Assembly (NCBI RefSeq): GCF_014084105.1
Contig: NZ_CP048289.1
Coordinates: 62,001-126,000, forward strand
DNA: 64,000 nucleotides
Direction: 5' to 3'
DNA from: Streptacidiphilus sp. P02-A3a
Lineage (GTDB): Bacteria > Actinomycetota > Actinomycetes > Streptomycetales > Streptomycetaceae
Part shown: piece by piece, positions 8,659 through 45,135 of the stretch
Layout of the letters: each line of letters begins with the position of its first letter
Position numbering within the stretch: position 1 is the first letter of the stretch
The notes under the pieces: model-generated
Databases searched by the model: none
Told to the model about the DNA's origin: nothing
The model's input: the letters and a program-made list of their open reading frames with translations, nothing else
Made by a program: the position numbers and the translations under genes

Positions 8659-8875
8659 ATTCCCCCTTCGCTGCCGCCCGGCCCGTGGCTGCGCGTCTGT
8701 GCAGGATTGCGCGGGCTACGAGGCGGCCGAACGGAAGTGTGCACCCGCTACCTGCCGCGGTGATAGGCGGGGTGGCACATTGATGCAGACTCAGGACGGA
8801 ACCGGGACCAGAACCGGATGAACCCGGTCATCCCACCGCGGCGCCGACCCGGTCACCGACCCGGTCGGCGGCCCC

Positions 8876-9076
8876 TCAGCCCACCAGCGCGACCACGTAG
8901 ACGGTGCGCGGCGGCTGGTACTCCTCCACGACCACGATCGAGCCCCGGGCGATCCGCTCCCCCGGCACCGCCGGGTAGGCCAGGAACGCCTCCGTCCCGC
9001 CGCGCACCGGGACCAGTACCTCGCCCACCAGGCCCGGCCCCACCGTCCCGGTGACCCGCCCCACGCTGCCGACCAT
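8876..9076 (-). CDS. NfeD-like OB-fold protein, short soluble form
   Basis: The 66-residue protein MVGSVGRVTGTVGPGLVGEVLVPVRGGTEAFLAYPAVPGERIARGSIVVVEEYQPPRTVYVVAL matches the C-terminal OB-fold of NfeD (G-x-G-x-V.., ..I..G..V.V...). Membrane helices of full-length NfeD are missing. NfeD and flotillin are usually encoded together and act at the membrane. The call relies on the pattern plus context. Confidence 0.7.
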   Translation of the reverse strand: MVGSVGRVTGTVGPGLVGEVLVPVRGGTEAFLAYPAVPGERIARGSIVVVEEYQPPRTVYVVALVG

Positions 9077-9145
9077 TCCGGCCCCCCTCTGTCGCCCCGC
9101 GCTGGAACCCGGCGCTGGAACCCCGGTCCGGCTCGGAGCGTACCC

Positions 9146-10114
9146 TCACCCGTGCGACGGGGTCAGCACGATCCGCTGGCCGGGGGCGGTGCGGGTGCCC
9201 CAGGCCCGTTCGACCTCGGCGAGGGGCAGCACGAGGGGGTTCACCGCCAGCGCCCCGGAGGTGATCTCCGCGGCCAGGGCCGGGAGTTCGGCGAGGATGT
9301 CGGCGGTACCGAGGGAGCCCTGGCCGCTGCCCATGAGCCGCAGGTCGGCCCCGCGCAGCAGGGCGGACGGCAGGGTGAGCTCGGCTCCGGCCATGGAGCC
9401 GATCTGGATCCAGGCCAGTGCCCTGGTGCGCTCGGCCCGGGCGGTGAGCAGGGCCGGCATGGCGTGTTCGGCGGCCGGGCCCCACAGGTAGTCGATGACC
9501 ACGTCCACGTCGGCCGCGGCGCGGCCCAGCCGGTCGGCGACCTGCTCCGGCTCGCCCAGCAGCGAGACCGTCCGGTCCGCGCCCAGGTCGGCCAGCAGGC
9601 CCAGCCGCTCCGGGTCGCGCCCGGCGGCCACCACGGTCCCGGCGCCCAGCAGTTTCGCGATCCGCACCGCGAGCTGACCGGCGTTGCCGGTCGCGCCCAG
9701 CACCAGTGCGCCCGCGCCGGGCCGGAGCGCGACCCGGCGGCGCAGCGCGACCCAGGAGGACATGGCCGGGTTCATCGCGGCGGCCACCGCGACCGGGTCG
9801 GTGCCGGTCGGCAGGGTGACGGCGCGGCGGCGGTCGACCACGGCCCGCTCGGCCATGGTGCCGGGGACGCCGTCCGGGGCGACGAAGTAGAGCAGTTCCC
9901 GCCGCGGGCCGAGGCCGACCGCGTCGATGCCGGGGACCAGCGGCAGTACGCCGTCGGAGGTGTAGTGGCTGCCGTCGGCCCCGGAGCGCACCCGTGGGTG
10001 CAGCCCTGCGGCCAGCACGTCCACCAGGATCTCGTGCTCGCCCCGCGGTTGCGGCGGGTCGATGGCCTCGAAGCGGGGCGGGGCGTCGAAGGAGCGGACG
10101 ACGGCGGCGTGCAT
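9146..10114 (-). CDS. Quinone oxidoreductase-type MDR (zinc-free alcohol dehydrogenase family)
   Basis: The 322-residue protein has a GroES-like N-terminal domain and a Rossmann domain with LVLGATGNAGQLAVRIAKLLGAGTVVAAGRDPERL, the NADP-binding AxxGxxG form of quinone oxidoreductases. The zinc-binding Cys/His set of true alcohol dehydrogenases is absent. The start at MHAAVVRSF was chosen because AGGAGG lies 6 bases upstream. It is divergent from a marR gene across a duplicated operator, so it is probably induced by a quinone or electrophile sensed by MarR. Confidence 0.88.
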   Translation of the reverse strand: MHAAVVRSFDAPPRFEAIDPPQPRGEHEILVDVLAAGLHPRVRSGADGSHYTSDGVLPLVPGIDAVGLGPRRELLYFVAPDGVPGTMAERAVVDRRRAVTLPTGTDPVAVAAAMNPAMSSWVALRRRVALRPGAGALVLGATGNAGQLAVRIAKLLGAGTVVAAGRDPERLGLLADLGADRTVSLLGEPEQVADRLGRAAADVDVVIDYLWGPAAEHAMPALLTARAERTRALAWIQIGSMAGAELTLPSALLRGADLRLMGSGQGSLGTADILAELPALAAEITSGALAVNPLVLPLAEVERAWGTRTAPGQRIVLTPSHG

Positions 10115-10146
10115 GGCTGGCCTCCTGGGCTGGGCAGGGCATATGG

Positions 10147-10190
10147 TTTGTGGCACGTACTACTTCGACGGTAGTTTGTGCCACGTACTA
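10147..10190. promoter_or_regulatory. Duplicated 16-bp operator between quinone reductase and marR
   Basis: TTTGTGGCACGTACTA (10147-10162) and TTTGTGCCACGTACTA (10175-10190) are direct repeats with one mismatch, 28 bases apart (nearly three helical turns). The space between holds a further inverted pair, ACTAC/GTAGT. Their place between divergent genes makes them likely MarR-binding sites controlling both. Confidence 0.65.
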
Positions 10191-10215
10191 GGTCAAGCGG
10201 AAGAGGCGGCCGACG

Positions 10216-10680
10216 ATGACCCCCAGCCCCACCCCGGACCCGGCGGTCGACCCGCCGGAGACCACCGTGGACGCGTTGGTCCAGCTGTCGTTCCTGGTCC
10301 AGGGCGTGCTGGCGGGCGTCGCGGCCGAGTACGACCTCTCGCTGATCCAGGTCCGGCTGCTGGGGATCCTGCGCGACCGCCGCCCCGGCATGCTCGAACT
10401 CGCCCGGTACCTGGGGCTGGACAAGTCCTCCACGACCGGGCTGGTCAGCCGCGCGGAGAAGCGCGGCCTGGTCCAGCGGCTGCCGTCGCCGCACGACGGC
10501 CGCGCCGTGCTGGTCGGCCTCACCCCGCTCGGGCGGCGGCTCGCCGAACAGGGGACGGCCGAGGCGGAGCGGCAGATCACCGCGCTGACGGCGGTGCTGA
10601 CCCCCGACGAGCAGCACCGGATCCGCGCCCTGACCGGCCGACTGCTGCGGGCCGCGGCGACCGCGGGCGGCGCCCGGTGA
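10216..10680 (+). CDS. MarR-family transcriptional regulator
   Basis: The 154-residue protein has the MarR winged helix: LSLIQVRLLGILRDRRPGMLELARYLGLDKSSTTGLVSRAEKRGLVQRLPSPHDGRAVLVGLTPLG (about residues 42-110; recognition helix KSSTTGLVSRAEKRG, wing with DGRAVLV). MarR proteins are usually repressors released by phenolics or oxidants. It is divergent from the quinone oxidoreductase it probably controls. Confidence 0.92.
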   Translation: MTPSPTPDPAVDPPETTVDALVQLSFLVQGVLAGVAAEYDLSLIQVRLLGILRDRRPGMLELARYLGLDKSSTTGLVSRAEKRGLVQRLPSPHDGRAVLVGLTPLGRRLAEQGTAEAERQITALTAVLTPDEQHRIRALTGRLLRAAATAGGAR

Positions 10681-10773
10681 CCCCCGGAGCGGCGCCGACG
10701 GGTTCCGCCGCGGGCGGACGGTCTGGTCAACCAGGCCTGGCGCTGGGTACGGTGTGGACATCTCATTTGCAGA

Positions 10774-12692
<1,919 letters not shown>

Positions 12693-12701
12693 CCCCACCG
12701 A

Positions 12702-12752
12702 CCACCGCGCCGGCCCCGGAGCCACAGGGGAGCCCCGGGCCCGGCGCGGTGG
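12702..12752 (+). terminator. Stem-loop terminator after thiC
   Basis: CCACCGCGCCGG (12702-12713) pairs perfectly with CCGGCGCGGTGG (12741-12752). The 27-base loop holds further pairing (CCCCGG/CCCCGGG region). It begins 10 bases after the thiC stop. Confidence 0.75.
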
Positions 12753-12760
12753 CCACCGCC

Positions 12761-12786
12761 GACTCGGGTTCCCGAGAACCCGAGTC
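12761..12786. terminator. Second perfect hairpin downstream of thiC
   Basis: GACTCGGGTTC (12761-12771) and GAACCCGAGTC (12776-12786) pair fully around CCGA. It could be a second terminator insulating the accessory cassette, or the edge of the inserted segment. Confidence 0.6.
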
Positions 12787-13168
12787 CTGAATTGTGCGGG
12801 TACAACAGAGGGCTGCGGCGCGCGGGTCGGGGCCGCGCGGCTGGCGGTAGTCTCGCCCTGTGATGTCGTCTAGGAGCCGGAGCGGGGCCTTGACAGGGGT
12901 GAATACCTCCTGCGCCCTAACCTTCGGCCGAACCCATTGAGCAGCGGTTCGGAACATCGTGAGCCTTGGCTTCCAACAGGACGAGGTCGCCTGGAAGCTC
13001 AACTCCTCGGGAACGAGAGCCAGTGGCCAACCGTGAACGAGCTCGTTGAGCGAAGGACAACGGTCAGGAGAAGACCAAGGCGGCGTGTCGATCAGTCGCG
13101 GGCCTCGTCGTATCGACGGGGGAGAAGGAGTCGACATGTGATCCGAGAGCCGAGGCTAGGATGATCAG
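12787..13168 (+). other. Untranslated leader of the HEPN-ATPase cassette, possibly a structured RNA
   Basis: No convincing gene lies in these 382 bases. A -10-like TAGTCT is at 12848-12853. Downstream are several exact stems: CCGAACC/GGTTCGG (12928-12934 with 12946-12952), GCTTCCA/TGGAAGC (12969-12975 with 12992-12998), CTCG-GGAA-CGAG with a GNRA-type loop (13006-13017), and ACCGT/ACGGT (13030-13034 with 13060-13064) enclosing the 12-bp palindrome AACGAGCTCGTT (13036-13047). A 25-codon frame from GTG 12959 (ending at 13035) also reads like decayed protein sequence (GFQQDEVAWKLNSSG). So this is either structured RNA or gene remnant. Confidence 0.4.
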
Positions 13169-13666
13169 GTGACTGTTCCCGCTCCTGCCGCCCTAGCGCC
13201 GGTCCAGTTCTGGGATGCTGCCAAGCGCCACTACGCCGATGCTGTCCATCTCAACACCGAGGGACGCCTCGGATCGGCGGACCACCTGGCTGGGTTCGCT
13301 GCTGAGTGTGCGATCAAGGCAATCCTCATCGGCTTCCTCGGATCCCAACTCAACTCAAAGGGAATACCCTTCAGCCCGGTTCTGAAGATCTCCGGACAGG
13401 GGCACCAGCATGGACACTTGCCCCCGCTCTGGTCCCAGCTTGCCAGTGTTGTCCACGGACAGGCGACTCGGGGAACGGTCGTGGGCCCAAGATTTATCGC
13501 CTTGATTTCCCAGGGGAATCCATTCGGGCGCTGGCACGTCTCTGATCGCTACTCTGATGCTTCCACCGTTACTGCTGGGCGGGTCACCAGACACCTCACA
13601 GCTGCGTACGACCTCTGCAGTGCTTACCAGCTAGCCCAACTGACCGGAACGGGCACATTGGCATGA
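13169..13666 (+). CDS. HEPN-like protein, first gene of a three-gene ATPase cassette
   Basis: This 165-residue helical protein has an N-terminal part, FWDAAKRHYADAVHLNTEGRLGSADHLAGFAAECAIKAILIGFL, that resembles the opening helices of HEPN domains (an 'LAGFAAE.AIKA.L' helix). Its last helix, VTRHLTAAYDLCSAYQLAQL, is also HEPN-like. A canonical Rx4-6H RNase motif is not seen (RVTRH is the nearest), so nuclease activity is uncertain. The GTG start follows GCTAGG weakly. The stop overlaps the next start as ATGA. Third-position bases are much more A/T-rich than in flanking genes, suggesting transfer. Confidence 0.6.
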   Translation: MTVPAPAALAPVQFWDAAKRHYADAVHLNTEGRLGSADHLAGFAAECAIKAILIGFLGSQLNSKGIPFSPVLKISGQGHQHGHLPPLWSQLASVVHGQATRGTVVGPRFIALISQGNPFGRWHVSDRYSDASTVTAGRVTRHLTAAYDLCSAYQLAQLTGTGTLA

Positions 13667-15006
13667 TGCAGGCCATCCGATTTGATGATGCCTGGCAGGC
13701 GGCCCTGCGCCTTGCGCAGACGCAGGCCGATGCTGGATTCGATGTCGTCCTGGTGCGCGACTTGTTGGGGCGCGCGACGTTGCTGATCGACGACCGATCA
13801 GCTTCCTTCGATGCTTCGTCAGTCGACTGGGAACGGCTTCGCGAGGCGTTCGACAACGCTACCGGACCGTTTGCCGGACTTGAACCAGTACAGGCCGCTA
13901 CCGGCCTTTTCGCGCCGGATTCCGTTATGAACTCAGCTGATCTGGCCGTCCTCCAGAAGCGTGACGGAAGTCACGGTCAATTGGCCCTGCTGGACCGTGC
14001 TGTCATCGGCATCGACTGGCTGCGCCCCGCTGTGGCGGAATCATCCGAAATAGAGCGTCGAGTGACGCTCTATGGATTCAAGGGCGGAGTTGGACGATCT
14101 ACCGCAACGGCTGTCCTGGCCCGCTACTTGGCAGAGACCGGGCGCTGCGTCCTCGTGGTGGATCTGGACCTGGAGTCCCCCGGAGTGTCAGCGCTTCTCG
14201 AGGATCCAGCGCAATTGCCGAACCATGGTGTGCTTGACCACCTCGTAGAGGCTGGCGTCGGAAATGAGAGCGGCCTGGATCTGGTCTGCCGCAGCTCGGC
14301 ATTGTCAGTCAAGGGCAACGGTGAGGTCTGGTTGGCTCCTGCTGGTGGCCGTCCTCGACCTGGATACGAATACCTATCAAAACTGAATCGCATCTACACG
14401 GACTTGCCGCCTGCTCTCCCAGGTGGCGAAGGGCGGCCGTTCGCCCGTCGCCTGGAGGCGGCTGTGGCAGCGTGCGAGGGGCAGGTCGCAGAACGCAGCC
14501 GCCGACCGGATGTGGTCCTGTTGGACAGTCGGGCAGGAATGCATGATGTCGCTGCTGCAGCGATCACACAGCTTGCGGGACTGGCACTGCTCTTCGTCGT
14601 AGATAATCCGCATACGTGGGCTGGCTACGAGATGCTGTTCGAGCAGTGGGAGCGTATTCCGGTCCGAGCGCGAGCGCTGCGTGAGCGACTGAAGATGGTT
14701 GCTGCCATGCTTCCGCAGGCCGATGCGGATGAGCGGTTGGCACGGCTCCGCGATCGGGCGCAGGAACTATTTGCGCGAATCTACGACGACGAACAGGGGG
14801 CGGATCCAGCGGCATTTAATCCGGCGCCGGATGATGAGGATGCACCGCATTCGCCGATCCCGATCCTCTTCAGTACAGATCTGATTGGGCTCGATGCTGG
14901 GAGGACTCGTGACTGGTTGGATCTCCAGCTTATTCAGGCCGCTTATTCCACGTTTCTTTCCCAGGTGGAGCGGCTGGTACCGCCATTCCGAGAGGACGCT
15001 TCATGA
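13663..15006 (+). CDS. KGGVGR-motif ParA/MinD-like ATPase
   Basis: The 447-residue protein has LYGFKGGVGRSTATAVLARYLAETGRCVLVVDLDLESPGVSALLE starting near residue 136. This is a deviant Walker A, KGGVGRS (K140-R145), in place of KGGxGKT, and VVDLDLESPG is the ParA/MinD-type switch region. VVLLDSRAGMHDVAAAAI follows around residue 285, the Walker-B-like DxRAG of this class. The N-terminal ~125 residues have no known domain. KGGVGR ATPases are known in streptomycetes in multi-gene conflict-type loci. Start and stop overlap both neighbours by ATGA, indicating translational coupling. Confidence 0.8.
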   Translation: MMQAIRFDDAWQAALRLAQTQADAGFDVVLVRDLLGRATLLIDDRSASFDASSVDWERLREAFDNATGPFAGLEPVQAATGLFAPDSVMNSADLAVLQKRDGSHGQLALLDRAVIGIDWLRPAVAESSEIERRVTLYGFKGGVGRSTATAVLARYLAETGRCVLVVDLDLESPGVSALLEDPAQLPNHGVLDHLVEAGVGNESGLDLVCRSSALSVKGNGEVWLAPAGGRPRPGYEYLSKLNRIYTDLPPALPGGEGRPFARRLEAAVAACEGQVAERSRRPDVVLLDSRAGMHDVAAAAITQLAGLALLFVVDNPHTWAGYEMLFEQWERIPVRARALRERLKMVAAMLPQADADERLARLRDRAQELFARIYDDEQGADPAAFNPAPDDEDAPHSPIPILFSTDLIGLDAGRTRDWLDLQLIQAAYSTFLSQVERLVPPFREDAS

Positions 15007-16463
15007 CCCCTGAATTCAATGGTGGTGAAATGAGCGCCGGGGCATATCGTGAGCTCCTCACCACGGCCCCAGGGAATGCTTTTGACGCAGATTCAGACGC
15101 CCCAGATCTTCGGCGGCTCTACACGCCGGACAGCCATCGTCTGGCACTGGATCCAGATGTCACAGTTGTCCGCGGGGGTCGGGGCTCCGGTAAAACCGTG
15201 TGGTTCAAGGTGCTCAGTGATGATCGATTGCGGGTAATCGCGGCCGAAGCGTACAAGTTGCCACGGCTGAACGGTGTAGTCACAGCCAACGGATTTGGCA
15301 CCGCGCTCGGCCCAGAATCCTATCCAGGGCCAGCTACCATCCGCAAGATTCTCGATTCCGATGTTGACCCGGCAGAAATTTGGACTGCTGTCGTCCTGGT
15401 TGCGCTCAACGTCGAGCAGATCTTGACGATCAAGGGCTGGGAGCACAGGGTGGCCTGGGCGCGCAACAATCCCGAGGCCTACGAGGTGGCACTCTGGGAA
15501 GCGGACCAGAAAGCCGGTGCAGAGCGCGTCATCCAGCTACTGCTCTTCGATGGTCTTGATCACCTGCACAGCGATCGCGGAATTGCAGACCAGATGGTTT
15601 CCGGGCTACTTAAAACTGCCCTCGGGCTTCGTCTGGCGACCCAGAATATTCGCGCCAAGGTATTTATTCGCCCTGACATGTATGAGAGTGCATCGCGCAA
15701 CTTTGCAGATGCCTCCAAGCTGGGCGCTAATGCGGCGGATCTCACCTGGTCAACAGAGAACCTCTATGGTCTGCTCTTTCATCAGCTCGGCAATGGCGAA
15801 GGGGAGGCGGCGGCCGCATTCCGACAGGTTTCTGGGTCCTGGCGCGCGGGTCAGAACGGGCGGTTCGTGCCGCCGGTTGACGTGGTCGCCGACTCGCAGC
15901 GGCAGGAGGAAATCTTCGTCGGTATGGCAGGCTGGTACATGGGGGCCAATCATCGAAAGGGCTATACGTACACGTGGTTGCCCAACCACCTTCAGGATGG
16001 AAATTGGCAGGTAAGCCCCAGGAGCTTCCTTCGGGCCGTCTCGAAGGCTGCAGAGGTAACGCGGGACAGCTTTGCCAGCTATGAGCTGGCGCTCCATTAT
16101 GATGCAATTCGTCAAGGGGTTCAGGCGGCCTCACAGGTTCGGGTCGACGAAATCAGGGAAGATATCCGTTGGGCAGCTATTGCCGGTGAGATGCTCTCGG
16201 GTCAGCAAGTACCGATCGATGCCGGAACCGTTGTGGCCTGCTGGAGGGAGGGCGACTTGGTGGGTAAACTTGAAGCTCTTCACCCAGATGGATCGGTGGG
16301 CAGCGGGCCCAAAAATATGGCGGACCACAAAGGTCTCATTGACCAGTTGGTCGAGCTGGGTGTGATGACTTGGCGTACTACGGGGAAACTTGATCTCCCG
16401 GACGTCTACCGGATCGCGTTCGACATCGGCCGTAAGGGCGGAGTCCGTCGTCCAACCCGATGA
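15003..16463 (+). CDS. P-loop ATPase of the cassette, AAA/STAND-like
   Basis: The 486-residue protein carries TVVRGGRGSGKTVWFKVL (Walker A near residues 57-64) and LLLFDGLDHLHSD (Walker B near 179-187), followed by DQMVSGLLKTALGLRLATQNIRAKVFIRPDMY, a sensor-like segment of AAA/STAND ATPases. The C-terminal half shows a winged-helix-like end, KGLIDQLVELGVMTWRTTGKLDLPDVYRIAFDIGRKGG, which could bind nucleic acid or a partner. No recognised effector domain is seen. It is the last gene of the coupled trio. AT-rich codon use is shared with the two genes before it. Confidence 0.7.
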   Translation: MTPEFNGGEMSAGAYRELLTTAPGNAFDADSDAPDLRRLYTPDSHRLALDPDVTVVRGGRGSGKTVWFKVLSDDRLRVIAAEAYKLPRLNGVVTANGFGTALGPESYPGPATIRKILDSDVDPAEIWTAVVLVALNVEQILTIKGWEHRVAWARNNPEAYEVALWEADQKAGAERVIQLLLFDGLDHLHSDRGIADQMVSGLLKTALGLRLATQNIRAKVFIRPDMYESASRNFADASKLGANAADLTWSTENLYGLLFHQLGNGEGEAAAAFRQVSGSWRAGQNGRFVPPVDVVADSQRQEEIFVGMAGWYMGANHRKGYTYTWLPNHLQDGNWQVSPRSFLRAVSKAAEVTRDSFASYELALHYDAIRQGVQAASQVRVDEIREDIRWAAIAGEMLSGQQVPIDAGTVVACWREGDLVGKLEALHPDGSVGSGPKNMADHKGLIDQLVELGVMTWRTTGKLDLPDVYRIAFDIGRKGGVRRPTR

Positions 16464-16533
16464 TCCATAGGCGGTGCGCTCGCGGCAGGGGAAGGACCAG
16501 GGACGACGAAGCTCGGCAGCGTGGCTGATCTGA

Positions 16534-16680
16534 CGGCCGCATCACTCCCAGGACTTCACCCAGGCACAGGTCGCTGCCGAGATGGGTGCCACCCAGGGGC
16601 GGCCTGCCTGCACGCCATTGGAGGCGAGTTGAGGGTAACGGCCACGGTGGGGAAGTTGTCGGTGCGGCTGTGGGTGGACC
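16534..16680 (+). pseudogene. Decayed XRE/HigA-type HTH antitoxin remnant
   Basis: Frame 16549 onward reads QDFTQAQVAAEMGATQGR, the helix-turn-helix of XRE antitoxins. The end of the same protein type, LHAIGGELRVTATVGKLSVRL (usually 'YVEALGG.L.V.A..G...VRL'), appears from about 16607 in a different frame. About 20 middle codons are gone and the frame is shifted, with a TGA at 16531-16533 before it. The rest of 16464-16772 shows no other gene apart from the RNA ligase ribosome site. Confidence 0.55.
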
Positions 16681-16772
16681 TGGTGGTCGGGTCGGGGTCG
16701 GCGGGAAATCGGGTGACGGGGCTGGGGGTGGTTGGGCACCATCGGGGGGTTGCCTCATGACTGGAGACGCTG

Positions 16773-17840
16773 ATGTCCACGCTGCGGGTCACCGCCGAGC
16801 CGTTGGTCGTGCTGGAGCACGCCGGTGCCGACGCGCTGGAGTTGGCGCAGGTCGGGCTGTATCGCGCGGTGGTCGCCAAGGGGCACTACCGGACCGGGGA
16901 GTTCGCCGTCTACATCCCGGAACAGGCGGTACTGCCCCCGGAGTTGATCGAGGAGCTGGGGCTGGTCGGGCGGTTGGCCGGCAGTGCCCGGAACCGGGTC
17001 AGGGCGGTGCGGCTGCGGGGTGAGCTGTCGCAGGGGATCGTCTGCCGACCGCGGGCGGTGACCGCGGATCTGGCCGGCGCGCACGCCGAGGGCGTGGACT
17101 TCGCCGGACTGCTGGGGATCACCAAGTGGGTACCGCCGGTGCCGGTGTCGATGTCGGGGATGGCCGAGTCGGCCCCGGAGCTGATGCCCTGGATCGACAT
17201 CGAGAATCTGAAGCGGTACCCGGACGTCTTCGCGCCGGGCGAGCCGGTCGTGGTCTCCGAGAAGATCCACGGCTCGGCCTGCCTCTTCAGCTACCTGGTC
17301 GACGGCGGCCGGGCGCTGGTCTCCTCCAAGGGCTTCGGCTCGCGCGGCCAGGCGCTGCGGGAGGAGGAGCGCAACCTGTACTGGCGCGCGGCGCGGGCCT
17401 TCGACCTGCCGGGGGTGGCCGCGCGGCTGGCGGCGGACCTCGGCGCGAGCCGGATCGGGATCTTCGGCGAGGTGTTCGGGGCCGGGGTGCAGGACCTGCG
17501 CTACGGGGCGGCGGCGGGCACCGCCGGGGCGCCCGGCTACGCGGTCTTCGACGTCTCGGCGGAGATCGGCGGGCAGTCGGTGTGGCTGGACGCGGCCCGG
17601 CTGCTCGACGGACTGCTGCCGCTGGTGCCCCGGCTGTGGACCGGTCCGTTCGACGTCGACACGGTACTGGCGCTCGCCCAGGGCACGGAGACGGTGTCCG
17701 GACAGGGGCTGCACCTGCGCGAGGGCGTGGTGGTCCGACCGGTGGTGGAGCGGTACAGCGCGGAGCTGGGCGGACGGGCGATCGCCAAGGTGGTCAGCGA
17801 CGCCTATCTGACCCGCAAGGGCGGCACCGAGTACGAGTGA
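16773..17840 (+). CDS. ATP-dependent RNA ligase, Deinococcus DRB0094-like
   Basis: The 355-residue protein has an N-terminal beta-rich domain (about 1-120; GHYRTGEFAVYIPEQAVLPPELIEELG) followed by a nucleotidyltransferase domain with VVVSEKIHGSACLFSY, where K164 is the AMP-accepting lysine of motif I (KxHG). Further motifs are IGIFGEVFG (motif IIIa-like) and GVVVRPV plus AIAKVVSDAYL (motifs IV/V). This matches the DraRnl family that seals nicked RNA. GGAG lies 6 bases before the ATG. It sits directly after the HEPN-ATPase cassette but has host-like high GC, so a functional link is only inference. Confidence 0.85.
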   Translation: MSTLRVTAEPLVVLEHAGADALELAQVGLYRAVVAKGHYRTGEFAVYIPEQAVLPPELIEELGLVGRLAGSARNRVRAVRLRGELSQGIVCRPRAVTADLAGAHAEGVDFAGLLGITKWVPPVPVSMSGMAESAPELMPWIDIENLKRYPDVFAPGEPVVVSEKIHGSACLFSYLVDGGRALVSSKGFGSRGQALREEERNLYWRAARAFDLPGVAARLAADLGASRIGIFGEVFGAGVQDLRYGAAAGTAGAPGYAVFDVSAEIGGQSVWLDAARLLDGLLPLVPRLWTGPFDVDTVLALAQGTETVSGQGLHLREGVVVRPVVERYSAELGGRAIAKVVSDAYLTRKGGTEYE

Positions 17841-19067
<1,227 letters not shown>

Positions 19068-19146
19068 CGGCACGGCCGACCGGCGCGGCCGACGGGCGCG
19101 GTGACGGAGTGACGGAGTGACGGCGGTGCGAGGGGGCCGGGGCGGG

Positions 19147-20337
19147 TCAGTCCGCTTCGGCCTCCTCGCTGAGCGCGTCGAGGTCGTGGCCCCTCGCGGC
19201 CTCGGCCTCGATCTCGTCGGCGTTCGGCAGGAACCGCGAGCGGGGGCGGGCGCGGGGCGCCGGGACGGTGCCGCTGCTCCAGCCCGGGCTGGAGAAGTCC
19301 GGCCGGGAGTAGCCGGGGCTGCTGAAGTGCGGCTCCGACTGCGAGGCCGACTGCGGCTCCGCCGGTGACGTCGACTGCGGCTCCGCCGGTGACTCGGGGC
19401 CCGGCTCCGACCGCGGTCCGGGGTCGGGGTCGGGGCCGGTCTCGTCGCCGAGTTCGTCGGCCGCCGTCGACTCCAGCCCGTCCGGCCCCGGGCTGGTGAA
19501 GCCCGGGCTGCTGAAGTGCGGTTCGGACTGCGGGTCGGGGCCCAGCTCCTGGCCCTGCTCGCCGCTGATCCGCTCGGAGCCGGGGCTGGTGAAGCCGGGG
19601 CTGGAGTAGCCCAGCTTGGGCTTGGCCCGGACCAGGCTGATCCCGTCCGAACGCGCCGCCGCGCCGTACCCGGCGGCCACCGGCAGCGGCGGGCCCGCCT
19701 GCTCCAGCAGGTAGGGCAGCAGTGCCTGGTCGCGCAGCGCAGTCCGCCAGCTGTCCCGGGCCCTGGCCAGCTCCGTGTACAGGTCGGGGCTCTGACCGGA
19801 CGGCGGGTCGGCGGCGTCGCGGGCGGCGGTGAGCAGCAGCCCGATGATGTCCACCACGATCGCGACGGCGCAGACCACGGCCCCGACGAACCCGGCGGTG
19901 ATCAGCGGCTGGCCCAGCGAGGCGTGTTCGGCCCGCAGCAGGAAGCCGAGCAGCAGCATCACGATCGCGCTGAGCCCGGACAGGATCGGCAGCAGCACCG
20001 CTATCAGCGGCACCCAGCCCGCGCGTTCGGCGGCGTCCAGCGGGCTGTCCGGGGCCTGCCACTGGGCCGGGTCGTCACCGCCGAGGCGGTCCAGGTCGGG
20101 CCCGGCGGCGCTGCCGCGCACCTGTTCGCGGACCTCGCGGTAGTAGTCGTACTCGGACCGGGCCCCGGCGGCGATGGCGGCGCGGTCGCGCAGGGCGAGG
20201 CCGTGCAGCCGGTCCGGTGCCGGTGCGCCGGGCGCGCGGCGCAGAGCTTGGCGTATCTCGTCGTGCTGGAGCAGTTCTTCGAGGATGCGCTCGAAATCCG
20301 GGGCGTCCTCGGCCTGAAGGTATGGAGCACTGTCCAT
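19147..20337 (-). CDS. Membrane protein with C-terminal SSPG repeats
   Basis: The 396-residue protein has a soluble start (1-110), two membrane helices (about 113-135, LIAVLLPILSGLSAIVMLLLGFLL, and 146-170), and a long C-terminal region. That tail carries repeated (Y/F)SSPG(F/Y/W)-type motifs: YSSPGFTSPG, FSSPGFTSPG, FSSPGYSRPDFSSPGWSSG, set in Pro/Glu/Ser-rich spacers. The motif may be a docking or phosphorylation site, but nothing in the sequence proves that. It converges on asd. No function is recognised. Confidence 0.75.
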   Translation of the reverse strand: MDSAPYLQAEDAPDFERILEELLQHDEIRQALRRAPGAPAPDRLHGLALRDRAAIAAGARSEYDYYREVREQVRGSAAGPDLDRLGGDDPAQWQAPDSPLDAAERAGWVPLIAVLLPILSGLSAIVMLLLGFLLRAEHASLGQPLITAGFVGAVVCAVAIVVDIIGLLLTAARDAADPPSGQSPDLYTELARARDSWRTALRDQALLPYLLEQAGPPLPVAAGYGAAARSDGISLVRAKPKLGYSSPGFTSPGSERISGEQGQELGPDPQSEPHFSSPGFTSPGPDGLESTAADELGDETGPDPDPGPRSEPGPESPAEPQSTSPAEPQSASQSEPHFSSPGYSRPDFSSPGWSSGTVPAPRARPRSRFLPNADEIEAEAARGHDLDALSEEAEAD

Positions 20338-20602
20338 GAGTCTCTACCTACTCCCCCGAAGGCTCCGTCAGGGGCTTCTGCCTCCGATGGTAGGGGGAGG
20401 GACTGACACGGTGACAGATTGTTTCCAGAATTTCGGTGCCTGCTGGTGCTGCTGATGCCTCCGGTATATGCCGGATGCCGACCTGGCGCCGGGGCGCAGG
20501 TCCGGCCGCAGGTGGGCGGGGGTGCCGGGGCCGGAGGATTGAGGGCGCGCAGGAGCGGCACGCGCGCCGCCCGGGTCGGGCCGGTGCCGCCCGGGCGTCG
20601 GG

Positions 20603-21811
20603 TCAGTTGAGGGGGAGCCGGGCCACCAGCAGTCGCCCCTGTCCCTCCATGGTGACTCCGCCGTCCATGGCGACGGCCAGGCCGTCGGCGTAGACGTGCG
20701 GTCCGGTGACCGGCTGGCCGGAGGCGCCGGACGGTCCGTCCTCGCTCTGGGCGTCGCCGATCAGGTAGGGGATCGGGCTGTGGCCGTGGACGATCCGCTG
20801 CCCGCCGTAGGTGTCGAGCAGTTCCCGGCAGGCCATCGCTCCGGCGTCGCCACGGAAGGCGAACCGCTTGGTCATCCGGCGGAAGCAGTCCCACCAGTCG
20901 TCGGCCTCGTCGCCCTGCAGCACGTCGTGGATGGCGTCGTTGACGGCGTCCACGGAGTCGCCGTACTCCAGGTAGGCGGTGGTGTCGGAGTGGATCAGCA
21001 GGTGGTCGTCCTCGACCGCCATCGCCGGGAGCCGGGAGAGCCAGGTGACGTGGTGGTCCTCCAGCCGGTCCATGTCGCTCGGCTGGCCGCCGTTGAGCCG
21101 CCAGGCGGCGAGGAAGGAGGCGGTTCCGGCGGTGGACTGGACGGCCTGGTCGCCGTAGCGGTCGGCGCCGAGCAGCAGCAGCTCGTGATTGCCCATCAGC
21201 GCCCGGCAGTAGCCGCCGGCCGCGGCGGCCTCCGGGGCCAGGTTCATCACCAGGTCGATCACGCCGATGCCGTCCGGGCCCCGGTCGGTGAAGTCGCCGA
21301 GGAACCAGATCCGGGCCGGACCGGCGGCCCAGTGCCCGTCGGCGTCGATGATGCCCGCCTGGTGCAGGGCGTCCAGCAGCGCCTGGAGGTAGCCGTGGAC
21401 GTCGCCGACCACGTACAGCGGGCCGGGGCCCTCGCTCTCGGCGGTGCTCGGGGCGGCCGGGGCGGGTGCCGGTCCCGGCTCGGCCATGGTGGCGTGGGCG
21501 AAGGCGACCGGCGCGGACAGCGGCGCGCCCAGCGGGATGGTCGGCGGGTCCACCGGTCCGGGCAGGTAGGCCGGGGGGGCGAAGACCGGGCTGCCGTGGA
21601 ACGCGGGCGGCTCGGCCGGATAGCCGGGCGCGCCGTCGTAGGAGGGCCCGGCCGGGTACCCGGCGGCCTCCTCGGCCGCGCGCGGCGGCGGGGAGAAGAA
21701 GTCGTACGACGTGGACCCGTCGCCGTTGACCCCTGGCTGCTGAGGGTCCAGGGGCGCACGGGGGCCTGGGTCCGGCAGCTCAGGCTGGGCGAAGGGGTCC
21801 ACCGGTGTCAT
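20603..21811 (-). CDS. Calcineurin-like metallophosphoesterase
   Basis: A Pro-rich tail of about 130 residues precedes the catalytic domain with VVGDVHGYLQALLDAL (D-x-H), WFLGDFTDRGPDGIGVIDLVMNL (GDxxDRG), ALMGNHELLLL (GNHE) and IVHGHSPIPYL (GH). These are the metal ligands of PPP-type phosphatases. ATG 21809-21811 is preceded by a -10-like TATGAT (21818-21823) and no ribosome site, suggesting a leaderless start. An in-frame ATG at 21886 would add 25 residues. The substrate could be phosphoprotein or a dinucleotide. Confidence 0.88.
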   Translation of the reverse strand: MTPVDPFAQPELPDPGPRAPLDPQQPGVNGDGSTSYDFFSPPPRAAEEAAGYPAGPSYDGAPGYPAEPPAFHGSPVFAPPAYLPGPVDPPTIPLGAPLSAPVAFAHATMAEPGPAPAPAAPSTAESEGPGPLYVVGDVHGYLQALLDALHQAGIIDADGHWAAGPARIWFLGDFTDRGPDGIGVIDLVMNLAPEAAAAGGYCRALMGNHELLLLGADRYGDQAVQSTAGTASFLAAWRLNGGQPSDMDRLEDHHVTWLSRLPAMAVEDDHLLIHSDTTAYLEYGDSVDAVNDAIHDVLQGDEADDWWDCFRRMTKRFAFRGDAGAMACRELLDTYGGQRIVHGHSPIPYLIGDAQSEDGPSGASGQPVTGPHVYADGLAVAMDGGVTMEGQGRLLVARLPLN

Positions 21812-21947
21812 TCGACCATCATAGGAAGCCCCAGTTCGCGGTGTACGCACCTGGGCGGGATCAATCCAGCCGAGGCTGTCGGTCATGAGCGTCGATGGCG
21901 AGCATATGTGGTGGTTTCTCCGGTTTCCAGGGCCCTCTGGTCGGTGG

Positions 21948-23057
21948 TCAGGCCTCGCCGGGGAGCCTCGGCGGACTGACGGTGGTGCGGGTCGGACGGC
22001 GTTGCGAGGAGCCGCGGACGATGAGTTCGGTCGGCATGAGCTGTCCGGAGGAGCCGTCAGCCGGGAGCGCCGCGCCCTCGATCGCGTCGATCAGCAGGTT
22101 GACCACGGTGGTGCCGATCCGCTGCGGCTTCAGCGACAGGGTGGTCACCGGCGGCTCGGTGGTCGCGTAGACGTCGCTCTCGCTACAGCAGACCAGCAGC
22201 AGGTCCTCCGGGACCCGCAGGCTGTAGCGGCGGGCGGCGGCCAGCAGGTCGGTGCCGTTGGGGTCGAACAGGCCGTAGACGGCGTCCGGCCGGTCCGGAC
22301 GGGCGAGCAGCCGGTCGGCGGCGACGGCGCCGGCGCACGGGTCGTGCGCCGGGTACGCCTCGCACAGCGGCTCCTGCCGGACCCGGCGGCACCAGCCGAG
22401 GTAGGCCTCGGTGCTGAGCCGGGTGTAGGTGTCGGTGCTGGTTCCGGTGAGCAGGCCGATCCGGCGGGCCCCGGCCTCGGCGAGGTGTTCCAGGATGCCG
22501 AGCACCGCGCTGCCGTGGTCGTTGTCCACCCAGGCGGTGACCGGGCAGTTCCCGGGGCGGCCGTCGCTGACCACCGGCAGGCCCTGCCGGTAGAGCTCGG
22601 CGACCATCGGATCGTGGTCGGACGGGTCGATCACCACCGTGCCGTCCAGCGCGACGTTGCTCCACACGTCGTGCCGGGAGGTCGCGGGCAGGACGACCAG
22701 GGCGTAGCCCCGGTTCAGCGCGGCGGAGGTGGCAGCCCGGGCCATCTCCGCGAAGTAGGCGAACTCCGTGAAAGTGAAGGGCTCCTGGCCGTAGGTTGTG
22801 ACGGTCAGTCCGATCAGGCCGGAGCGACCCGTGCGAAGGGTGCGCGCGGCGGCGGAGGGACGGTACCCGAGGCGTTCCGCGACTTCGCGGACCTTGCTGC
22901 GGGTTTCGTCCGGGAGGCGGCCCTTGCCGTTCAGGGCGTCGGAGACGGTGGTGATGGACACCCCCGCCGCGGCGGCGACGTCCCTGATCCCGGCGCGTTC
23001 CAGCCGCCGGGCGTGGGGTGGTCGCCGGCCGCTCTGGTTGGCTGCTGCTGCTGTCAT
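21948..23057 (-). CDS. LacI-family transcriptional regulator
   Basis: The 369-residue protein has the LacI HTH, GIRDVAAAAGVSITTVSDALNGKGRLPDETRSKVREVAERLGYRPSAAARTLRTGRS (about residues 23-80), followed by a periplasmic-binding-like effector domain ending with VTTLSLKPQRIGTTVVNLLIDAIEGAALP. The ligand is unknown and no sugar catabolic genes are adjacent. It is divergent from the HisC-type aminotransferase. The 279-base gap between their starts holds no other gene and no obvious LacI-type palindrome. Confidence 0.92.
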   Translation of the reverse strand: MTAAAANQSGRRPPHARRLERAGIRDVAAAAGVSITTVSDALNGKGRLPDETRSKVREVAERLGYRPSAAARTLRTGRSGLIGLTVTTYGQEPFTFTEFAYFAEMARAATSAALNRGYALVVLPATSRHDVWSNVALDGTVVIDPSDHDPMVAELYRQGLPVVSDGRPGNCPVTAWVDNDHGSAVLGILEHLAEAGARRIGLLTGTSTDTYTRLSTEAYLGWCRRVRQEPLCEAYPAHDPCAGAVAADRLLARPDRPDAVYGLFDPNGTDLLAAARRYSLRVPEDLLLVCCSESDVYATTEPPVTTLSLKPQRIGTTVVNLLIDAIEGAALPADGSSGQLMPTELIVRGSSQRRPTRTTVSPPRLPGEA

Positions 23058-44029: not shown

Positions 44030-44680
44030 GTGTCGTACGAGCCCAAGCTGGCTGCCGCGTTGTCGGGAGCGACTCTGCGGCAGCTGTCGCACTGGCGGCG
44101 AGGGGGCGGCGAGCGCGGTGCTGTCCTGATTCCTGAGCTTTCGGCATCTCGTCCGATCCTCTACTCCTTTCGCGACGTGGTCGCTCTCCGGACCTGCGTC
44201 CGCCTTCGGCAGGAGGCGTCGTTGCAGCGGATCAGGCGCGCGCTGAACACCCTGCGCGAGGGCCTCGACGAACGCGAGCACCTTTCCGCCTACCGCTTGG
44301 TAGCAGGTGCTGACACCATCTACCTGGCGGACCCGGACCACGCAGTGGACCTTGTGCGAAGCAAGGGGAATCTGGTCATCGTCGAGATGGTCGACGTGCT
44401 CGCGCCCTTCTACCGTGGCGGACGACGAATCCCGGACCTCCTTGAGCCGCGACCGCACGTATCGATCGATCCTGCGGTGCGTGGGGGAGAACCGGTCGTC
44501 GAAGGCACACGTATCCCGGCCGCTGAGGTGGCCGCGCTCCTTCGAGACGGTGTGAAGCCTTCGGAGATCAGCGACTACTACCCGGGCGTCACGCCGGAGG
44601 CCGCTCTCGACGCGGCGGACTTCGTCGACTATGTCGACAGCTATGCCGATGACGCGGAGATCCGGCAGGCCGCGTCTTGA
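44030..44680 (+). CDS. Antitoxin with MerR-like HTH and DUF433 domain
   Basis: The 216-residue protein has an N-terminal MerR-like HTH (GATLRQLSHWRRGG...PILYSFRDVVALRTCVRLRQEASLQRIRRALNTLRE, about residues 10-80) and a C-terminal DUF433 domain (HVSIDPAVRGGEPVVEGTRIPAAEVAALLRDGVKPSEISDYYPGVTPEAALDAADFV, about 143-200). DUF433 proteins pair with DUF5615-type PIN toxins, exactly as here. AGGAGG lies 7 bases before the GTG. Confidence 0.85.
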   Translation: MSYEPKLAAALSGATLRQLSHWRRGGGERGAVLIPELSASRPILYSFRDVVALRTCVRLRQEASLQRIRRALNTLREGLDEREHLSAYRLVAGADTIYLADPDHAVDLVRSKGNLVIVEMVDVLAPFYRGGRRIPDLLEPRPHVSIDPAVRGGEPVVEGTRIPAAEVAALLRDGVKPSEISDYYPGVTPEAALDAADFVDYVDSYADDAEIRQAAS

Positions 44681-44682
44681 GG

Positions 44683-45135
44683 ATGCTGTTGGACGAGAAT
44701 GTGCCGCTCCCCATGGCTCAGATCGTGCGACTGCTTATGAAGCACCAGTCGATCGACCACGTGGCCGAGCTCAAGGGCTGGGCGGGTACGCGGGACATCG
44801 ACCTCTACGCGCGAGCCGCAGCAGAAGGCTTCCACGTCATCCTCACGAACGACACCAAGCAGCTGAGCCGCCCGCTGGAAGTGGTGGCCATCGCCGAGTC
44901 GGGCCTGCATCGCATCGAGTACCGTCAGAACCACAAGCACGGCGGCCTGGTGGGACTCGGCGCCGCCATCGCCACCGTATGCGCCGGCCTGCCCCACGCC
45001 CTGTTGGAACTCGACCGGGCCGTCGGTCAGCGACTCATCTCACTCAACGGCGTGGACCCGTCTCAGCAGAACAGACTGCGGATCGTGGACCCGGCTGCTG
45101 CTCCACCGAAGTTCTGGCCCTCCACCTTTGCGTGA
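44683..45135 (+). CDS. DUF5615-type PIN-like toxin
   Basis: The ~150-residue protein begins MLLDENVPLPMAQIVRLLMKHQSIDHVAELKGWAGTRDIDLYARAAAEGFHVILTNDTKQL. The D-E near the start, the D-x-D/L strand and TND are the acidic residues of DUF5615 (Mut7-C-like PIN) nucleases. A TTG at 44677 overlapping the antitoxin stop could be an alternative start, adding two residues. It partners the DUF433 antitoxin. Confidence 0.82.
   Translation: MLLDENVPLPMAQIVRLLMKHQSIDHVAELKGWAGTRDIDLYARAAAEGFHVILTNDTKQLSRPLEVVAIAESGLHRIEYRQNHKHGGLVGLGAAIATVCAGLPHALLELDRAVGQRLISLNGVDPSQQNRLRIVDPAAAPPKFWPSTFA

Follow-up and report, generated by a model that had tools for sequence, protein, structure and literature searches.

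Positions 13169-16463 of a 64,000-nucleotide stretch of Streptacidiphilus sp. P02-A3a DNA (contig NZ_CP048289.1, positions 62,001 to 126,000; the whole stretch analysed is called the window) hold three genes—A, B, and C—whose predicted products are a HEPN-fold protein, a ParA/MinD-like nucleoside triphosphatase (NTPase) with a variant KGGVGR P-loop, and a STAND/Cdc6-type P-loop ATPase (Table 1). The three proteins match the PADLOC-DB v2.0.0 models PDC-M28 A, B, and C over nearly their full length (E-values 1.4e-32, 1.9e-125 with model PDLC04559, and 2.3e-154, respectively), and they do so as adjacent, overlapping genes. The trio, which a first-pass annotation made from the letters alone had not recognised, is thus a new member of an already catalogued phage-defence candidate, and nothing sets this copy apart from the catalogue entry. 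Entries of this class come out of a survey based on guilt by embedding, and few of them have been validated experimentally (PMC12988326, PMC10855318); a literature search that did not cover preprints and supplements returned no paper naming PDC-M28 and no functional account in print. The calculations below add a noncanonical HEPN site, a fixed P-loop arginine, an NLR-type fold for gene C, and a standalone genomic context.

Table 1. Features of the PDC-M28 trio in the window (window coordinates)
Feature	Position	Strand	Remarks
Gene A, PDC-M28A, HEPN-fold protein, 165 aa	13169-13666	+	GTG start
Gene A E46-x3-K50 (Ex3K), helix 2	13304-13318	+	invariant in alignments of 29, 16, and 30 sequences
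Gene A H83, candidate catalytic His at an alternative position, within the insert that follows helix 2 (34-56) and precedes helix 86-100	13415-13417	+	
Gene A R127-Y128, Arg at the Rx4-6H position	13547-13552	+	invariant in all three alignments
A/B joint, 4-nt ATGA overlap (ATGATG)	13663-13666	+	from the sequence
Gene B, PDC-M28B, KGGVGR-variant ParA/MinD-like NTPase, 447 aa	13663-15006	+	ATG start
Gene B deviant Walker A KGGVGRST, with Arg in place of the P-loop Lys	14080-14103	+	from alignments
B/C joint, 4-nt ATGA overlap	15003-15006	+	from the sequence
Gene C, PDC-M28C, STAND/Cdc6-type P-loop ATPase with C-terminal winged helix, 486 aa	15003-16463	+	ATG start
Gene C Walker A GGRGSGKT	15174-15197	+	G58, R60, G61, G63, and K64 invariant in 30 sequences
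Gene C winged-helix-like end, about residues 389-475	16167-16427	+	predicted model

The first-pass annotation had described a three-gene unit with ATGA at both joints, Walker A motifs in the second and third products, and a foreign composition rich in A/T-ending codons, and all of these points were borne out. The reading frames are exact, with a 4-nt overlap at each joint; KGGVGRST occupies residues 140-147 of B and GGRGSGKT residues 58-65 of C. Because the −4 overlap recurs at both joints in most of 21 relatives (A/B 16/21, B/C 17/21, with starts picked by script), the overlaps are a family property and not a product of chance. GC content at third codon positions (GC3) is 0.657, 0.629, and 0.632 in A, B, and C, against 0.958 in thiC, 0.947 in the downstream RNA ligase gene, and 0.92-0.97 across the eight neighbouring genes for which it was calculated. 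Total GC per kilobase likewise falls to 0.59-0.62 over 13001-16000, compared with 0.71-0.78 at 9001-13000 and 17001-23000. The host genome is a single 9.33 Mb contig in which full-length gene B is present in one copy. A scan for promoters and terminators gave one promoter-like site (1.0 in shuffled sequence) and one terminator-like site (2.4 in shuffles).

Gene A had been likened to HEPN helices, and structure prediction agrees. The AlphaFold2 (AF2) model, at a predicted local distance difference test (pLDDT) score of 89, has the two helical hairpins of the HEPN superfamily with an insert between helices 2 and 3. Among the 23 best VIA-align rows, 18 were titled HEPN, HEPN/toxin-antitoxin, or Csm6, and a Calothrix relative exceeds the Pfam HEPN cut-off. 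In a PDB sequence search, the single match to gene A had an E-value of 0.33. The earlier label of HEPN-like stands for the fold and not for a canonical HEPN ribonuclease (RNase): the Rx4-6H motif is absent, residues 132-134 are S, T, and V, and no conserved His lies 5-7 residues past R127 in the 29- and 16-sequence alignments. The residues that are conserved follow the alternative-site pattern of AbiV and AF0298 (2hsb) HEPN-T proteins, with R127, H83 within the insert (residues 57-85), and E46-K50, and with the motif His missing; the Ex3[KR] motif and alternative His of these HEPNs are described in part of PMC3710099. H83 is kept in 29/29, 15/16 (all but Calothrix), or 30/30 sequences (a Calothrix His aligning there), depending on the alignment. 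Gene A scores 15.6 bits against Pfam HEPN_AbiV, below the cut-off of 27.1, and its structural match to AbiV specifically was not above background.

Gene B scores 184 bits against NCBIfam NF047398 (AAA_KGGVGR; cut-off 90), supporting the variant Walker A with a ParA-type switch that had been read from its sequence, and its nearest solved sequences in a PDB search are of the segregation/ParA, iron-sulfur carrier, and ArsA types. The canonical deviant Walker A of ParA/MinD proteins is KGGxGK[ST], with a signature Lys and a P-loop Lys. Gene B departs from it: the signature K140 is kept, and the P-loop Lys is replaced by R145 throughout. K140, G141, G142, G144, R145, and T147 are invariant in alignments of 33 sequences (the named ones actinobacterial), 11 sequences (cross-phylum), and 30 sequences. 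In P-loop proteins, a Lys-to-Arg change of this kind weakens hydrolysis, as it may do in gene B. Our literature search found no paper on the KGGVGR P-loop variant or its biochemistry, and none pairing HEPN with a ParA-like ATPase and phage.

For gene C, the P-loop ATPase with a winged-helix-like end anticipated by the first-pass annotation is recovered in the predicted model, which joins a P-loop domain to helical and winged-helix parts in the manner of STAND and ORC/Cdc6 proteins. The end of the model comprises helices 389-396, 407-416, 419-426, 442-452, and 467-472 plus two-residue strands, and structural alignments to NLR proteins (VIA-align on Foldseek's candidates; ~8-14% identity) reach residue 486, spanning this end. 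NLR and Avs STAND immune receptors carry a long C-terminal repeat sensor and a fused effector. Gene C shares the nucleotide-binding, helical, and winged-helix layout of NLR/STAND proteins (CED-4, plant resistosomes) and of Cdc6/ORC, but the winged helix is its terminus, at 486 residues, and the presumed effector is encoded separately. Against the Sll1717 P-loop ATPase family it scores 69.2, slightly under the cut-off of 75; the literature search found no paper on Sll1717.

The trio is patchily distributed. Gene C was used as the query, since a phylum search with the M28B profile matched 198/198 genomes and 14/14 controls, mostly through the ParA-like part, and was uninformative. Across 394 Streptomycetaceae genomes, C-like matches occurred in 37, of which 28 (the present genome included) were strong; nine weak matches (E 6.7e-7 to 5.6e-4) were left out and the other 27 loci fetched. 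These comprised 21 with A-B-C in order on one strand, five with C alone (33-40% identity), and one broken trio (L091), so that the trio is found in 22/394 of the sampled family genomes and in 2/14 of the genus (P02-A3a and G205). A sample of named genome contigs, overlapping the first, was drawn with an alignment query, which gave 127 C relatives; a single gene C protein as query matched none of the contigs. Adjacency of the three genes was found in 68 of the best 80 loci, in Streptomyces, Nocardia, Amycolatopsis, Micromonospora, Actinoplanes, Gordonia, Brevibacterium, and other hosts. The remaining 12 were nine C-only loci (35-40%), L172 (C at 49% identity, no B found), L133 (a contig edge with a B fragment), and L162. 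The last, from Saccharomonospora iraqiensis, retains A and B, with B split after about residue 296 by an insert of ~4 kb. The C-only loci (L086-L090, L196-L198, L200, L201, and L203-L206) form a subfamily at 33-40% identity with neither A/B nor pgl neighbours.

Plasmids extend this range beyond the Actinomycetota. A gene C relative was present in 21 plasmid records, of which 20 were listed and 10 opened; 13 of those listed were non-actinobacterial, and eight of these were among the records opened. All eight—from Paraburkholderia, Enterobacter, Thiodictyon, Burkholderia, Tistrella, Calothrix, Skermanella, and Agrobacterium—carry A-B-C in order, their A and B proteins align with the motifs conserved, and PADLOC assigned 9/9 proteins from the three trios submitted to PDC-M28. 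The Streptomyces NBC_01334 plasmid also has the three genes in order, and S. clavuligerus pSCL3 has C without A and B. Comparing the distance matrices for A, B, and C with one another gives correlations of r 0.84-0.97 (n = 30; 1000 permutations ≤0.41), and of 0.93-0.94 within the 22 actinobacterial loci (permuted ≤0.52). The trio travels as one mobile unit.

In many hosts it travels within phage growth limitation (Pgl) clusters, that is, bacteriophage exclusion (BREX) type 2 loci, with PglX, PglW, PglY/BrxC, and PglZ as identified neighbours. A count of co-occurrence near defence genes, proposed at the outset as a check, places 15/21 family trio loci between pgl genes and 0/5 of the C-only loci beside any; the layouts are pglX/pglW (seven), pglY/pglX (four), and co-oriented pglW-A-B-C-pglX (four). 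In the contig sample a pgl gene lies beside 34/68 trios, or 27/49 where both flanks reach 8 kb. PglZ (E ≤ 1e-60) is encoded by 73/394 genomes and 0/14 controls, and by 15/22 trio genomes compared with 58/372 others (Fisher p 1.7e-7, uncorrected for relatedness). The Thiodictyon plasmid trio also sits inside BREX type 2, the same embedding in another phylum. Trio GC lies near that of the flanks in pgl-embedded loci, unlike the P02-A3a copy.

That copy is a standalone one: its genome gave no PglZ match at E ≤ 1e-60, and the window no pgl match. On the B+C tree it groups with seven pglX/pglW copies at support 100/100. Because the standalone state needs five changes on this tree (at least four by starred branches; 114/500 label shuffles were as low), the trio seems to have moved in or out of Pgl repeatedly. 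A short PglW fragment (8798-9009; 58 + 14 residues in two pieces) adjoins the lone trio at L078 and suggests that a pgl cluster decayed there. L078 alone carries such a fragment among the six other standalone family loci, of which L073 is a 4.3-kb contig, too short to judge.

Several pgl-embedded loci have further peculiarities. Beside the trio at L066, a Schlafen/AlbA_2 gene and a canonical ParA-like gene overlap (10922-12777), a second pairing of an RNase-like with a ParA protein. HEC-09, an embedded defence candidate, adjoins the trio within the pgl cluster at L076 and L077. The gene C frame of L065 runs far past its usual end, antisense into pglW, through a lost stop or a sequence error, and PglZ of G423, from a trio-bearing pgl locus, is in two pieces (C2:260096-261884) and possibly broken.

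The P02-A3a trio occupies a variable slot between thiC and asd (window 12692-18024). ThiC is present in 13 genus relatives; in 11 of them asd lies on the same side inside the 20 kb that was fetched, at distances of 0.8-12 kb, and none of the 13 has B or C above 100 bits in its thiC stretch; the slots of L111 and L120 are nearly empty (~0.8 kb). Slots L109, L110, L114, L116, and L118 each contain a small gene whose N-terminus is common to all five, and L113 contains part of it. A search for att sites and target repeats around the trio found only two-copy, chance-like repeats, and the insertion mechanism is not visible. The RNA ligase gene that follows (16773-17840; Pfam RNA_ligase, 75.4 bits) was considered as a partner and rejected: its GC3 is native, it occurs in 3/14 genus genomes (P02-A3a, G198, and G203) that share only P02-A3a with the trio, and no match above 120 bits appeared in the fetched family loci. 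Directly after gene C are the remains of an antitoxin-like helix-turn-helix gene (16490-16672; 79-87% DNA identity in three pieces), and the G210 slot holds an intact helix-turn-helix and Gp49/RelE-like pair (L121 8707-9422). Elsewhere in the window, a DUF433/MerR-like gene overlaps a PIN-like/DUF5615 gene at 44030-45135, in a low-GC stretch at 43-47 kb (GC 0.64-0.67), and looks like a toxin-antitoxin pair.

We read the trio as a mobile immune module against phages or other elements, with a HEPN effector gated by two ATPases, at a probability of roughly 0.6. The defence role offered by the first-pass annotation is still inference, though it now has strong genomic context behind it; a defence role of some kind is likely on that basis. 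A number of observations weigh against our reading. No pgl gene lies beside 22 of the 49 contig-sample trios whose flanks both reach 8 kb, and placement within pgl clusters can arise from a common transfer platform instead of a shared function. Gene A lacks the canonical RNase motif, and its Calothrix relative lacks H83 in one alignment; PMC3710099 considers MNT-fused HEPNs without catalytic residues to be most likely inactive, and HEPNs without conserved charged residues to be binding domains. Gene C has no repeat sensor, found no match in a PDB sequence search, and found none among 50,697 phage records, which leaves no clue to a trigger or counter-defence. The activity of every family member is predicted from sequence.

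Four alternatives were weighed. Gene A could be a catalytically dead HEPN adaptor that binds RNA or nucleotides or regulates B, the effector step being driven by an ATPase or by another, recruited nuclease. The missing Rx4-6H and the noncatalytic HEPNs treated in part of PMC3710099 fit this, but in our judgement residues fixed across phyla (E46, K50, R127, and Y128, with H83 in 15/16) exceed what a scaffold would call for, and we consider the adaptor unlikely. To a similarly small degree we credit a primary role in toxin-antitoxin or addiction, by which the trio would keep plasmids and islands stable, with HEPN as toxin, B (with C) as antitoxin, and any antiphage effect secondary. Precedent exists in the MAE_18760 family (Anantharaman et al. 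2013; PMC3710099), where a HEPN gene adjoins a SIMIBI ParA-like ATPase gene as in the trio and such HEPN-ParA/Soj dyads are postulated toxin-antitoxin systems in which the ATPase restrains the toxin; plasmid copies of the trio, moreover, lie near integrases, and 2/10 opened plasmid records were typed conjugative. MAE_18760, however, keeps the Rx4-6H that gene A lacks, and the trio adds a third, STAND ATPase gene; three conserved genes, one encoding a 486-aa ATPase, far exceed what an antitoxin needs, and addiction leaves the 15/21 loci within pgl clusters unexplained.

Those same loci could instead make the trio a lineage-specific Pgl/BREX type 2 component needed by that system, its lone P02-A3a copy a leftover. 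The co-oriented pglW-A-B-C-pglX arrangement in L082-L085 and a Streptomyces plasmid speaks for this, as does the PglW remnant beside L078, yet the trio is not consistently present with the system: 58/73 PglZ genomes lack it, and 7/22 trio genomes, P02-A3a included, have no PglZ match at the threshold used. Lone copies retain the invariant motifs, pgl fragments are missing from the window and from lone loci besides L078, and the several changes to the lone state on the tree also disagree with obligate membership. The related idea that gene C replaces BrxD was rejected on the presence of BrxD in 73/73 PglZ genomes; a PADLOC scan of gene C did not return BrxD. A profile comparison, a weak one, gave an hhalign probability of 1.1%; its BrxD profile comprised three sequences, of which one (26% identity) may be out of frame. 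We regard a Pgl component as improbable. The ParA-like domain of gene B might argue for a conserved locus with a housekeeping or partition function, but the distribution already contradicts this: the trio is no core locus of its family or genus, and it is foreign in GC3 within a variable slot. We give this alternative almost no weight. Of the two findings that the first-pass annotation had named as refuting it, a core housekeeping locus and a first protein predicted to have no HEPN fold, neither was obtained.

For the favoured immune module, an order of action can be proposed from BREX backup effectors and ParA/Soj restraint of HEPN toxins, combined with the predicted folds. BREX loci often carry backup effectors such as HEPN RNases and PARIS-type (OLD-TOPRIM) ATPase-nuclease pairs, as covered in part of PMC12839542; PARIS (AriA ATPase, AriB TOPRIM) is likewise an ATPase-gated nuclease module inside or beside BREX, differing in its folds—TOPRIM and OLD-ABC rather than HEPN, ParA, and STAND. 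Gene C would most likely sense invasion through DNA, a replication intermediate, or a disabled host defence and, once triggered, would change nucleotide state or oligomerise. Gene B, a dimerising ParA/MinD-like NTPase with its P-loop Arg, would probably bind nucleotide with little hydrolysis and act as a latch linking C to A. Gene A would then cut cellular or phage RNA through its AbiV/AF0298-style site, halting the infected cell in an abortive outcome. We lean toward gene A being a HEPN RNase; the order of sensor C, latch B, and effector A is more tentative, at somewhat below even odds. More doubtful still is the full picture, in which a repeat-less STAND protein, a nonhydrolysing, Arg-fixed ParA-like dimer latch, and an alternative-site HEPN RNase form a three-protein relay, standing guard over BREX/Pgl in many hosts and acting on its own elsewhere, across at least Actinomycetota, Pseudomonadota, and Cyanobacteriota.

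If defensive, PDC-M28 would be widespread and in part carried on plasmids, a system that places two different nucleotide switches on one HEPN effector and includes a P-loop variant conserved across phyla. The mechanism of Pgl/BREX type 2 is described as unclear in part of PMC12839542; because the trio often lies inside these loci, some of the resistance attributed to them may be due to it. The standalone copy in Streptacidiphilus sp. P02-A3a permits study of the trio apart from Pgl.

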